Assembly: GCF_014633365.1 (NCBI RefSeq)
Contig: NC_068347.1
Location: forward strand, 15,088,433-15,152,432
DNA from: Diospyros lotus
Lineage: Eukaryota; Streptophyta; Magnoliopsida; Ericales; Ebenaceae
Length of the DNA stretch: 64,000 nt
Direction: 5' to 3'
Part shown: positions 42,501 through 48,500 of the stretch, piece after piece
Numbering within the stretch: position 1 is the stretch's first letter
How the letters are laid out: each line of letters begins with the position of its first letter
Position numbers and translations under genes: made by a program
The notes under the pieces: model-generated
The model's database searches: none
Told to the model about the DNA's origin: nothing
Seen by the model: only the letters and a program-made list of their open reading frames with translations

Positions 42501-45500
42501 TGTCCGAAAATTATATTTGTGCTACAACTACACTCACACACTGGTGAGTTTAAACCTTCTCACCATTTCAACACTGAACATCCAAAACTGATTAAGGCTA
42601 TTTAAATTGTAGAGTGAGGAGTGCAGCCAAATTTTGGCGCCGTTGCCGGGGAGGTACAACAAAAGAAAAAAATTCACTCCACGGTCTAAATAAAAATTTT
42701 TGCATACGAGTTCATGCATTGAAGATCGTCAGGTATGCCTATCTTCTATCATTTTATTGCCGATTGAGGACAATGCGCAATTTAAGTTGGGGGGTAAGGT
42801 GTACTTAGGCATTTATTGGTGTTTGAATTTAATCTATTGTGCAAATAATTTTGTTTGACTCGATAATAATGCTTTGTGTGGTATATATGATTTTATTAAG
42901 CACAAAAAAAAAAAAATTAACTAACCCAAAAATTAAAATAAATAAATAAAAATAAAAATAAAAACTAAAAATATATATATATATATATTTCAAAAAAATA
43001 TATATATAAATAATTAAAAAAATTATATTTAAAAAAAATATTTAGATAACTTTTAGTTACTAAACAGTGCAAGAGATTACGGTCAGGTATGATTATTGAA
43101 ACATTAATTGATTCATTAGCATCATTATCTGCCGTTGAATTGTCATTCCATATTCTCTATGTCTCAGTATTTTAGCATGTCTGTGACTTCTAATGCATTT
43201 GGCCATCCTGATCCCGGTGAGGGGAGGTTTTCTTTTGACCAGAGTCAGAGGGAGAATTTTTATCTGTCGGGCTATGACCCAAATCTTTACGCTGAATACC
43301 CCAGTTCCTATAACCGTTGGAATTATCCTTGGAACAATGACTCTGTGTTCCAATCTCATGAACCTTTTCCTCCACCACCTCACCAATTTGAGTTAGAACA
43401 ATGGGTTAGATCTGATGCTTATCAACCTCAGGATGAAAAATGTTTAGAGGACACCCTTCAGGAGTTTATGCAAGGTCAAATGAGTTTTAATACACAAGTG
43501 GTCGAACTTCAAGAACAAACCACTAGAGCCATAGGTGACATTTTAGAACAATTGACCGAGTTTACACAGACCTTGAGCGTGAGTGAACCTAGAGAGTTTC
43601 CAAACCAACCTAATCAAAATTCCATAGGCCAATGTCTTGGGGAGGAATTGTCATTCAATGCACCCATAGGTCAAGAGTCGGTCCAATCTATACCCATCCC
43701 TAGGAATGATGAATCAATTGAGAGACTTGATGACCCTAGGATGGTACGAGCAATCATAGAAGAAAAATTGGGCCAAAATGCTGTGAGAAAAGAAGAAGCC
43801 TGGGAGAAAGAAGATGATAAAACCCAAGAGCCCAAATGTGAAGATACCATGGGCCTAGCCAAACTTGAGCCTAAATTTATGTCTTTTGGGCTAGTCTATA
43901 TTATTGGGGATCAAATTAAACCAAACATGTGTGAAGTGTTTGTGCGAATTGATGTGTCGTATTCTAATGTAATAAAGCCAACACCTCCGAATGACATATT
44001 TTCAAAATATGTATGTGCATTTATGAGAAAAATTAATTTACATAATTTTGAAAATAACTTTAAAACTGGTATAATGAATGGGAGTTATTATACGAATAGG
44101 TGGGCAACCACTTATTTGATTCTTAACTGGAAGAAAAGAAAAAAAAAAAAAAAACTCTTAAAAAAAATTTAAAAATATATAATAAAATAAAATAGAGAAA
44201 AGAGAGAGACAGACATATCGCTGACGGCAACCACTTTTCTGGGGCAGTGCAATCACACTGCCCTATAAAGAAAAATGACACAATATCCTATAAAGAAAAA
44301 GAAACATCAAGCATTGAAAAAGAAACGCCGAAAGTTGAAAAAGGAAGAGGCACACTGCCAAATGTTGAAAAAAGAGGCACCAAGCATTGAAAAAAGAGAC
44401 GCGCCTGACCCTACAATTATGGCGTGCCTCGAGCCAAGTATAGAATAGTGACACCCATTGCTCTATAAGAGACTCTATATCTGTATGAGCCAAACCACAC
44501 TTCTGCAAGCAAGCTCAGTTTCCTCTCATTCGTGTTGTTCTTCGATCAGGTATTTTCGTTCATTTTGTAAGATTTATAGTTTCTACTTTTCTCTTATTAT
44601 AGTTGTCTTTTGATTTAAAAATAAATAAATAAATAAAATGGAACTTCAACTATCAAAAATCCGCAAGTACTATCCATCTCTCCCAATGAATTATTTGAAA
44701 CAAATTTATATTGGTAGGTGTGAAAGACTTAGGATCTTGATGCGTAATAACATCCCTGAAGATATTCGTTGGCTGATCGAAGCAAAAGTTCGATTAGCTG
44801 GCAAAACTTCACCTAGTTTTAAGCACTTCCCGGGCTTAGGAAAGAGTAGTTTTGCAAAGAAACGAAGAGCTAAAAGAGTGAATGGTTGTTACAAGTGTGC
44901 TCGTTGGACCTGTAACACTCGATGCAAATCTGTGGGGTTTACGTCCGTAAATCGAGAAGATAAAATTAGTTTCATAAAGGATGGACTGAGTAAGGAGTCA
45001 TTGGATGATATCCGATTGACTCTTGAGACGCATCCATGTGGAATAGTGCAAAGAGAACTTCTTGCTTTATGAACCCAGTTCATAAGTGACCACCAACGCT
45101 ATAGTCTTGGGAATCTGACTAAAAATGACCCTGTTTGCCAATCTATAAGAAAATTGGATGGGAAGCTTATCCTCGCTTCATAGAAAGTGTTTAAGCCGTT
45201 TCTGGACGTAAAACCAGAGGAAGATGTGAGCCACAATCACAACTATTTGTACATACGCATGATTTTTGTTTGTATTTATTTCTTGTTGAATTGTTGTATA
45301 GCTACTTTTGATTGTCAAACCTCTTTCCAGGGCATACAAAAGAAACAAACATGGAAGGCCAGTTAGTTCATCGAATCAAAACCATATGTGTACTTTGTGG
45401 CTCTCAACTTGGGAGTGATATTTGTTACGCACTTGCAGCAAGCGAACTAGGCAAAACATTAGGAGAGAAAAAGATTAATTTGGTGTATGGAGGGGGAAGT

Positions 45501-48500
45501 CGTGGGTTGAATGGTTATGTTTCACAAGCTGCACTTTTTGGAAAATCATATGTGGTAGGTGTAATGCCAATCCCTTTGGCTGAACCACGTATTTCTGGGA
45601 TTACACGCGGTCAACTTGTAGAAACGACTTCTATGTCTGAGCGCATGGCTTGTAAGATTTATCAGTCAGACGCTTTCATCGCTTTACCAGGAGGTTTTGG
45701 TACACTTGAAGAAATCTTCTGTATAATCTCTTGGGCCAAGAGCAATCTGCATACCAAACCCATTGGATTTTTAAATGTTAACCATTTTTTCGATGGGTTG
45801 CTCTCTTTTATTGATCAGGCTGTGGACCAACAGTTCATTTCTCCTTCAGCAAGAAAGATTCTTATTTCTGCATCCACCATCGAGGAGCTGCTAGAAAAAT
45901 TACATACTTATGTTCCACAGCACGATCCTTATGAGCCTCGGATAGATTGGTCTAAGGCAATCAAAAACAAGCGGCAAAAAGGTTCGATTAATTTAGAATT
46001 ATCCCTGTAAGGCAAGTCTATGATAAGATGACTGAGTAAGGAGTACTTTTTGTATTCTTGAGACGCATCTCCTATGACTTGTACAAAATTTCTTTTCTTG
46101 TGTTCTTAAAAAAATAATAAAAAAATAATAAAAAATTAAAAAAAAAACTATGGAATGTTGTTAGGCGAGTCTATGATAAGATGGCTGAGTAAGGAGTACT
46201 TTGTACTCTTGAGACGCATTCTGTTTATCTTATGACTTGTATGAAATTTTTATTTTGGTGTGAAAATATAAAAATATATATATATGGTATGCTCATTTGT
46301 TTGTTTGAGTTTTAGCAGTTCACAATAAATCTATGGACTTATGGAGTTACAGGTATTCCTAACAACCCTATTTTATTACTGCAATTCAAGTTGGGGGGAG
46401 TAAGGTATATTTATGAATTATCTAGTCTATGTTTAACTGTGAATTTGCAATTGCATGCTTGTAGTTTTGTGTGAATTAAAAAAAAAAAATAAATAAATAA
46501 AAAAAAAATGTGTGTGCTTTAAATAATGCTATCCCTAAAGCTTTGGAATTGTACACTGATAGCCAGTTGAATTTGCAATATGAATCATGAATGCATTAAT
46601 TTCTTATTTGAAAATGTATATGTATGGAATTAGAATAGATGATTTGCATGCATCGGGTGTTCAATAATTAGAAATTGGTTTATCTGTCATAAAGTCAAAG
46701 GCAATGGTAATTAGCTGATTAGCACACTGCATGATCCCTCAACAGAAGTAGAGACTATTACCCGAGTGAGTGTTTGAGCCTGTAATCGTTACTTCTGAGT
46801 GAAATAACACTTACTCTAAATATGCTTTATTTTTTATCTCATCTTTTCAATAGCTTCAAAGCATCAATTAGCTTTGAATGTCTAGTATGATAGCGGATGA
46901 ATTTGGCTGGTTTCAAACTCTGAATTAGTTGACTGAGTAACATTGTTTTATAGAAGTATGATAGGGGGAGCAATTTCTTTCAATTTGGGCTTATTAACCT
47001 TTTTCTTTCTTTACATTAACCTCCATTACTAGCCCATTTGAGCTGTTCTTAGCACAATTTCTTTCCTTACCTTCGTCTAAACCTGTAACCATATGAAGTT
47101 TGTCCAACCTGGTGTGTTTCTAGGAATCAGTCTATCTCGGTATTTTCATATAAAAAAAAAGAGAAAAAAAAAAAAGGAAGTTCTCTTAGCTTTTCAGCAT
47201 GAGTGTTCCAAAATAAATGCTGAAGAAAAAAAATATGTCTAATTTGAGATTAGTGCCAAAAAAAAAAATCCTGACACACCATTTGCACACTTTACCCTTT
47301 TCTTTTACAACTCGTATTAACCTCATAGCCCCATTACAACCTAGTTTGGTCCCTCTTGATGCTATAAATCATGTGATCTCAAGATTCGAGTTCGGAGTAG
47401 GGAATTCTGTTTAAATTCAGAAGTTATTTATCTATGGCATTATTCCAGTCATGAAGCTATGTCAAATTCCCTGTTCTTTCATGAAAATACATTCTTTGTA
47501 TTTGGGATGACACCGAGTTTGAACTTGTTTTGCATTTACTCTTATAACGGTGCATCCCCTTGTGTGTACACTTGAGGAATCGTTTTATTATAGGGAAAAT
47601 CCACAGTAAGGCTTAAAGTCAAAACTTCGAAGGAGTAAATCTGTATATTGATCATCCTGATTGTCATTCCTAAGATTGTATGACCTTTAACCATAAATCT
47701 AATTTTGAATGTTCGACTTATTTTGAATGTTCTACTCTACGCATTTTGGTTTCAAATTTGAAATTTTTATATTCATGCAAGTATTGCGATTAGATCATGG
47801 CTGGTGTATAATCTAATTGCTAAGGGACTAGCAATATTCAAGTTGGGGGGTGTGATAAGGGTCAATATTTCCTATATCCTAATGAATTATATCCCTATTT
47901 TGGCTTTATAATTATGCTTAAAATAAATAATTATTTGCATTATATATTATTACAGGATGAAGCAAGAAAGCTGTCTTCTACAATTAATTAGGGGCATAAA
48001 TCGAAGACGTTGGATTACCCATTATTGTTGCTCAAAATCATGGGCCAACTATGGAGTCTAGAGGATGTTTCATGTGCACTTGGCCCAACAATCAAATAGA
48101 ATCCAACATAAGACAAGCCTAAGCCCAAGCTCAAGCCCAACACAAGGAAGGCCCAAGCCCAAGCCCAAGCTCAAGCCCAACACAAAGAAGACCCAAAGCC
48201 CAAAAATATGAAAAGCCCAAGTCCCACAAATAGGATGACATCATCGCTTACATCATGGGATAGGATGACATCATCGCTTACATCATGGGATATGATGACA
48301 TCATCGCTTACATCATGGGATAGGATGACATCATCGCTTACATCATGGGATAAGATGACATCATTGCTTACATCATGGTTAAAATGACATCATTGCTTAC
48401 ATCATCAATTAGATATTTTGTATTATTAAATTATATAATTAAGTGGTTTCCATTACATCTTTTAGCCTATAAATAGAGCACTTAGGTGCACTTGTAAGAG

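Follow-up and report, generated by a model that had tools for sequence, protein, structure and literature searches.

A NABP-LOG gene pair in a pol-less derivative of a putative Athila-like Ty3/gypsy retrotransposon family of Diospyros lotus

The extra open reading frames (ORFs) of plant long terminal repeat (LTR) retrotransposons mostly lack known domains (PMC9289625). This report concerns a 64,000-nucleotide stretch of Diospyros lotus DNA (NC_068347.1, positions 15,088,433 to 15,152,432; the window) that contains an LTR element with two such ORFs of recognizable families, one encoding a NABP-like protein related to the cysteine-rich proteins (CRPs) of carlaviruses and the other a LOG-like phosphoribohydrolase. 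Athila-type OTA elements with extra ORFs share with the family of this element the gag-pol order, a single RNase H stretch as far as a Pfam scan of one copy shows, sense ORFs between pol and the 3' LTR and a 5-bp target-site duplication (TSD), and the extra ORFs named for them are Athila ORF-1, plant mobile and Transposase_28 rather than a NABP-like/LOG-like pair (PMC6317226, PMC7264820). A YgdH (LOG) domain is listed for LTR consensuses of Citrus sinensis, C. clementina and Populus trichocarpa (PMC9289625 section 12), and a LOG in a plant Gypsy element is therefore already in print. The Populus LOGs belong to the same clade as the window protein; section 12 gives only a line in a domain list, for which it cites Steinbauerova et al. 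2011, and describes no partner of the NABP type, no phylogeny, no test for selection and no altered pocket. Phalaenopsis has Gypsy elements with an ORF for an AlkB m6A demethylase. These are alike in carrying an extra ORF of a domain found in Betaflexiviridae and retained over replication rounds; they differ in the domain, in being confined to Phalaenopsis in that screen and in having one gene instead of two (PMC9289625).

The first-pass annotation of the window knew of no described plant retroelement with this pair. The Citrus and Populus elements already document the LOG domain in such elements; no description of the NABP partner, the common LOG clade or the pocket change was found in the literature searched, which mostly excluded subscription journals, or in the excerpts of PMC7264820 and PMC6317226, and no carlavirus nucleic-acid-binding protein was found together with a retrotransposon in the literature searched.

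The window element is interpreted, with a probability of roughly 55%, as a derivative that has lost pol and comes from a large Athila-like Ty3/gypsy family with recent activity, whose NABP-LOG accessory module would work as proposed below. Sequence, linkage, ratios of nonsynonymous to synonymous substitution (dN/dS), identity break points and a phylogenetic tree carry this reading, and the action of the module is proposed from homology and conserved signals. The features of the element are as follows.

40995-49534, forward strand: whole LTR element, 8.5 kb (40990-49539 with the TSD)
40990-40994, no strand: left copy of the TSD GTGAG, from the sequence
40995-42629, forward strand: 5' LTR, TG...CA, from LTR comparison
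42635-42652, forward strand: TGGCGCCGTTGCCGGGGA, like a primer-binding site (PBS), from the sequence
42685-42998, forward strand: segment of the pol-NABP spacer of long relatives, from matches to long copies
43159-44172, forward strand: ORF1, gag-derived, C-terminal part of gag, from tblastn
44463-44473, forward strand: TATA-like box CTATAAGAGAC, from an 11-copy alignment
44550-44551, forward strand: candidate 5' splice site CGATCAG/GTA, predicted from the 11-copy alignment
44638-45072, forward strand: NABP-like ORF, 144 codons here, from Pfam; the end of the full frame is equivalent to 45183
45329-45330, forward strand: candidate 3' splice site CTTTCCAG/GGC, predicted, 20 nt before the LOG ATG
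45351-46010, forward strand: LOG-type phosphoribohydrolase ORF, 219 aa, single exon, from PF03641
46011-47839, forward strand: 3' non-coding part of the module, from subfamily comparison
47840-47852, forward strand: polypurine tract (PPT) AAGTTGGGGGGTG, from the sequence
47853-49534, forward strand: 3' LTR, TG...CA, from LTR comparison
49535-49539, no strand: right copy of the TSD GTGAG, from the sequence

Two LTRs, a PBS, a PPT and a TSD identify the element as an LTR retrotransposon. The LTR pair differs by 13 substitutions in 1,623 aligned sites (Kimura two-parameter distance 0.0081), and a tandem-unit indel of 60 bp together with two gaps, 12 bp and 1 bp long, lowers its raw BLAST identity to 95.1%. 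The first-pass annotation was right that the element is structurally complete; its interval 42630-47852 covers the interior only, and it overlooked the gag-derived ORF1. The PBS is presumably complementary to the 3' end of plant tRNA-Asp, and the 64-kb window contains no tRNA gene. Both LTRs contain 30-bp tandem units with TGACATCA (41384-41499 and 48230-48405), the number of which differs by the 60-bp indel. This motif resembles bZIP sites, and the units could be an enhancer array.

Copies were sought by six-frame searches of the Diospyros lotus genome itself (630 Mb in 43 contigs). The LOG query gave 1,126 first-look candidates, the best 150 of which were scored and are long matches of 89-100% identity. 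Stop-free LOG frames are present in 130 of these 150 rows, a best-scoring sample and hence biased to intact copies. NABP gave 957 candidates (best 150 scored) and ORF1 gave 1,500 (best 121 scored). These numbers do away with the single-copy outcome against which the first-pass annotation had warned. The LOG copies form subfamily A (the window type) and subfamily B (about 90% identical to the window, many with equal score); subfamily C (L029 and L030) was reached via ORF1 and is 84% identical to the window in LOG. Twenty-two relatives were fetched as 10-kb stretches, 20 of them picked as stop-free LOG matches. NABP and LOG are both present in 22/22 and in the window, a count that says little on how often LOG is intact, only L029 and L030 being unbiased for it. 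Both genes are in the sense orientation in many copies, as had been noted for the window.

Autonomous relatives place the family among Ty3/gypsy elements. In the 13 tabulated copies with open frames, pol lies directly upstream of NABP in L009, L012 (interrupted), L014, L018, L019, L020, L022 (interrupted) and L024, and is not found in L011 or in the short copies L027-L030. The subfamily B integrase query matches all seven long B copies (L019-L025), and many of its 131 scored matches lie inside open frames of about 1,800-1,900 codons. Pfam matches in L020 are Asp_protease_2 (23-117), RVT_1 (368-523), RT_RNaseH (612-715), H2C2 and rve (901-994), which is the protease-reverse transcriptase-RNase H-integrase order of Ty3/gypsy. 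L032 has a Retrotrans_gag match, and a C-x2-C-x4-H-x4-C knuckle is seen in the gag sequence. A second (archaeal-type) RNase H, the mark of Tat as opposed to Athila elements, was absent from the Pfam scan of one copy, L020. Athila ORF-1 (PF03078) was not among the Pfam matches of the window or of L020/L032; it is present in only 16% of Athila elements (PMC6317226), and its absence does not exclude Athila. The LTRs of two long copies are 100% identical over 1,620 bp and 99.95% identical over 2,006 bp. These near-identical LTRs and the many long open pol frames indicate that the family moved recently.

Related copies carry gag-pol directly upstream of NABP-LOG, which identifies the window copy, as far as sequence can tell, as a pol-less derivative: where gag-pol would be expected it has a gag-derived ORF and part of the spacer between pol and NABP. 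ORF1 is 36.7% identical over 297 aa to the gag of the pol-bearing relatives L031/L032 (tblastn, E ~5e-37) and has no Pfam match at E 0.01. Positions ~55-369 of the 5' interior query match ~3.73-4.06 kb of the long copies L009, L012, L014 and L015, and the similarity of the window to the long element's 5' end breaks off at ~42684. The segment 42685-42998 is accordingly read as a trace of the rearrangement that removed gag-pol. The first-pass statement that pol is missing is thus true of this copy and untrue of the family. Paired LTRs were found in 10/10 short pol-less copies examined, the window included, with 95.1-99.9% identity, and by this sign the short copies have moved too. With LTRs, PBS, PPT and a gag-derived ORF in the absence of pol, the window copy resembles non-autonomous derivatives with partial gag of the TR-GAG or LARD type, and differs in also keeping the accessory pair. 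The short B copies L026-L028 have a gag-derived ORF of their own at ~2.55-3.8 kb in element orientation, 46-49% identical to window ORF1 and 421 open codons long in L028. Pol-less derivatives are suggested to have arisen more than once. LOG/NABP copies recur every 7.2-7.5 kb on one strand at C14:18448121-18471026 (four) and C11:16478565-16493707 (three); these are probably head-to-tail arrays of short elements sharing LTRs.

The two genes travel together. When the 44 best-scoring NABP matches are set against 61 of the 150 scored LOG rows, 40 of them have a LOG neighbor. The best 40 of the 131 B-integrase matches were set against 88 of the 150 LOG rows and 67 of the 150 NABP rows, and 34 have NABP or LOG at a distance of 0.5-3.5 kb downstream. 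Both counts come from lists of best-scoring rows, in which a missing partner does not equal absence. The dN/dS values between subfamilies for intact copies are 0.21, 0.29 and 0.34 for LOG and 0.22, 0.16 and 0.18 for NABP, with 95% limits that span 0.09-0.58. The medians of all between-subfamily pairs are 0.22-0.33 for LOG and 0.12-0.20 for NABP. Constraint on ORF1 is weaker, with dN/dS of ~0.5-0.6 in three pairs of A-type and C-type short copies. The ratios indicate that the NABP-LOG module is under purifying selection, and the neutral decay that the first-pass annotation had named as fatal to its proposal was not seen between subfamilies.

The module sits on differing backbones. The identity between L009 and L020 is 62-82% in pol, rises to ~90% just past the pol stop, remains at 81-98% almost as far as the end of LOG, is mostly 79-94% in the 3' untranslated region (UTR; lowest 70-74%) and falls to 53-79% in the LTR. 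LTR identity varies from ~49 to 94% per 200-bp window, and the 3' non-coding part of the module (46011-47839) is 81-90% identical between subfamilies. Synonymous sites between A and B are saturated in pol and near 0.2 in LOG and NABP. Exchange of the 3' module between element lineages by recombination is the simplest reading of these identity break points and of a module shared by different pol/LTR backbones.

The LOG-like protein of the window has 219 aa and scores 115 bits against PF03641 (cut-off 27). It has the signature of a LOG phosphoribohydrolase, with an intact PGGFGTLEE and the catalytic residues R98 and E121, and the intact ORF of the first-pass annotation is borne out. CgLOG has Arg99 and Glu122 as catalytic residues and Met96, His97, Lys100, Glu125 and Trp129 around the base/prenyl group (PMC4979012). 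The window protein reads M, S, M, C, W at the Met/His/Lys/Glu/Trp positions of this cytokinin-LOG pocket, the Lys being replaced by M99 and the Glu by C124. Among 132 element-type LOGs the pocket Lys and the pocket Glu are never lost singly: 120 lack the pair and 12 (eight Xanthoceras rows, P0159, P0287, P0303 and P0313) retain it. All 25 host LOGs compared keep both. The loss is a single change on the tree. The catalytic Arg is kept in 127/133, the catalytic Glu in 129/133 and PGGxGTxxE in 117/133; these counts include P0242 (Thalictrum), which groups with host LOGs and is omitted from the 132. 'Element-type' denotes tree position, and copies inside an LTR element were seen in the Diospyros lotus genome only.

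Host LOG phylogeny, a comparison that the first-pass annotation had proposed, gave a clear placement. A careful tree was built from 56 selected rows. It unites its 33 element-type LOGs in a single clade (100/100) and puts this clade together with nine LOG7-type host rows on one side of a branch (100/100). The element-type stem branch is ~0.8 changes per site. The named members belong to Populus trichocarpa, P. nigra, P. x canadensis, Reevesia, Diplodiscus, Pterospermum, Xanthoceras, Rehmannia, Paulownia and Diospyros, and thus cover Populus, Malvaceae, Xanthoceras, Lamiales and Diospyros. The best named match of the window LOG is a Diospyros lotus protein (88%), and a copy nearest to subfamily B is annotated LOGL10 in Diospyros lotus. 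Plant host LOG genes have introns. The element LOG shares with the LOG7 type the family, the catalytic Arg/Glu, PGGxGTxxE and the tree grouping, and is set apart by its single exon, its long stem and the replaced pocket Lys and Glu. Plain cytokinin activation is doubtful because these two residues are replaced while the catalytic pair is almost always kept, and the element LOG is probably not a plain cytokinin-activating enzyme. The paired pocket loss after capture argues for a changed substrate over plain cytokinin activation.

The 144-aa ORF matches PF05515 Viral_NABP with 38.3 bits (cut-off 23, E 2e-9) and PF01623 Carla_C4 with 21.6 bits (cut-off 20.9). A match of this strength is far beyond what the profile would give by chance, and the profile search that the first-pass annotation had called for came out in its favor. 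Its virus-like cysteine-rich ORF is therefore confirmed in kind and not in length: the frame has 181 codons in 17 of the 22 fetched copies and 184 in one. Homologues number 417 at E <=0.01, of which 120 were listed, and Orobanche, Striga, Populus, Rhamnella, Xanthoceras and Acer are named among the matches listed. Viral_NABP was found in 48/51 and Carla_C4 in 43/51 of the homologues scanned. The conserved parts are KKRRAKR, then a zinc finger C-x2-C-x4-C-x3-C (C84-C87-C92-C96), and a further conserved stretch. A basic motif beside a zinc-finger-like Cys motif is the arrangement of carlavirus CRPs, and the significant Pfam matches are shared with them; the carlavirus zinc-finger motifs are C-x2-C-x9-C-x4-C and C-x2-C-x12-C-x4-C (PMC3689765, PMC9559581), a spacing that the element protein does not have. 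The element protein also differs in being encoded in a genomic DNA element, and its additional conserved part may be a further difference. It is best described from its sequence as a relative of the carlavirus CRP and not as a carlavirus CRP itself. When viral contigs were scanned with the NABP alignment, 21 pattern matches turned up, none of which was confirmed as a relative. A 44-bp repeat pair in the 3' UTR (46006-46049 and 46159-46202) shares 22 nt with the C-terminal NABP coding part. The repeats were considered as NABP remnants and this was set aside as marginal, the score of 32 being just above the highest value among 300 shuffles (31).

Expression signals were aligned in the window copy and 10 of the 22 fetched relatives, 11 copies in all from three subfamilies. 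The TATA-like box CTATAAGAGAC is the same in 11/11 copies, and the GT donor at 44550 and the AG acceptor at 45330, 20 nt before the LOG ATG, are kept in 11/11. This pattern suggests an internal promoter and alternative splicing of the module. About 75 nt just past the full-length NABP stop (45184-45260) are near-invariant in the 11 copies, though non-coding. The post-NABP spacer as a whole is not consistently better conserved than the 3' UTR in the three subfamily comparisons (p for spacer and 3' UTR, respectively: A-B, 0.060 and 0.166; A-C, 0.134 and 0.105; B-C, 0.121 and 0.186).

The proposed working of the family is as follows. Full elements would have the order LTR, gag-pol, NABP-like, LOG-like, PPT, LTR, with the accessory module kept by the element lineage and passed between backbones by recombination. 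The proposed internal promoter ~165 nt upstream of NABP may drive a transcript of its own. This transcript would encode the NABP-like protein when it is unspliced or has lost a short 5' intron, and splicing from the 44550 donor to the 45330 acceptor would yield the LOG-like enzyme. The NABP-like protein is predicted by homology to be nuclear and to act on nucleic acid, where, like carlavirus CRPs, it may reduce silencing or increase transcription (viral CRP activities are covered in PMC12172455, PMC3689765, PMC8742542 and PMC9559581). The LOG-like protein would be a captured single-exon LOG7-type nucleoside-5'-monophosphate phosphoribohydrolase with its catalytic residues kept and its base/prenyl pocket changed. 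Its substrate is probably another base-modified nucleotide, or its specificity has changed, and this may favor element expression or spread. A more far-reaching version is offered tentatively: a host LOG7 captured once by a eudicot Ty3/gypsy element would have had its pocket rebuilt for another nucleotide and been kept with the CRP-like nuclear zinc-finger protein as a counter-defense pair, comparable to retroviral accessory genes, that was traded between lineages and, unless it moved horizontally, would date from about the time of the rosid-asterid split or earlier.

Several observations weigh against the accessory-module reading. Stops are carried by 20 of the 150 scored LOG rows, NABP is cut short in L012, L013, L021 and L029 (4/22), and the window NABP is itself C-terminally truncated at 144 codons. 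The median dN/dS within subfamily A is 0.40 for LOG and 0.55 for NABP; higher values are expected for dead copies and are in themselves no support for selection. Silencing suppression is not to be assumed because the zinc-finger spacing is unlike the carlavirus motifs. With the pocket Lys gone, the enzyme may be weak or inactive. Linkage outside the Diospyros lotus genome is indicated indirectly, by equal contig sizes: NABP and LOG proteins occur on contigs of 8,723 bp (P0016, P0145) and of 4,511 bp (P0019, P0153), and Xanthoceras NABP P0084 and LOG P0126 on contigs of 21,981,555 bp, which is not the same as adjacency. Other equal-size contigs are short enough to be chance.

These points bear on the rival explanations to different degrees. 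The first-pass annotation proposed that LOG makes active cytokinin and, with the CRP-like protein, drives meristem or germline cell division that spreads the element. The kept catalytic residues, the plant LOG7-type nearest host genes and the 12 element-type rows that keep the pocket Lys and Glu agree with this, as does chrysanthemum virus B p12, described as a transcription factor that induces hyperplasia (PMC12172455); replacement of the pocket Lys and Glu in the window and in most element-type LOGs, set against their retention in every host LOG compared, makes the proposal doubtful and does not sustain its plain cytokinin activator. A LOG-like protein that is enzymatically dead and serves with the NABP-like protein as a structural or RNA-binding partner of the element particle or RNA would account for the lost Lys, and suits a basic NABP-like protein with a zinc finger. 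Alanine at the AMP-binding residues of CgLOG, S19A excepted, nearly abolished activity (PMC4979012), which is in line with such a loss. An inert scaffold would have no need for near-invariant catalytic residues and PGGxGTxxE, and gag already has a knuckle of its own, which leaves this explanation unlikely.

Passenger status, that is, a transduced host gene and a virus fragment without function, would fit the presence of LOG and NABP in non-autonomous as well as autonomous copies and the broken LOG and NABP frames, including that of the window. It is highly improbable given between-subfamily dN/dS of 0.16-0.34 with all upper limits <0.6, a single LOG clade across several eudicot orders and a coordinated pocket change. 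No sign of an assembly artefact or chimera at this locus was found, and its chance is negligible, the same module being present at many sites on many contigs and all 10 short copies examined having paired LTRs.

Other mobile DNA in the window lies outside this element. A Mutator-like element (MULE) at 50079-60807 stands beside the retrotransposon, with 856-bp inverted ends of 95% identity (50079-50932 and 59953-60807), a MULE/SWIM transposase ORF (57459-58835, minus strand) and a DUF1985 ORF (52863-53558). MULEs with captured ORFs are known. Open fragments on both strands at 12013-13255 and 31630-33460 look by eye like Copia-type reverse transcriptase/RNase H.

For genome annotation the family is a warning, since element copies are counted as cytokinin genes, LOGL10 in Diospyros lotus being an example. 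The NABP-LOG pair shows signs of long selection and backbone exchange and belongs to a young family of which one genome contains many intact copies, and it has named relatives with assays at hand for silencing suppression, nuclear location and nucleotide hydrolysis. The question of whether retrotransposon accessory genes act against host control or steer host cells becomes directly testable. These results suggest that virus-style accessory genes are part of the cargo of some plant transposable elements.

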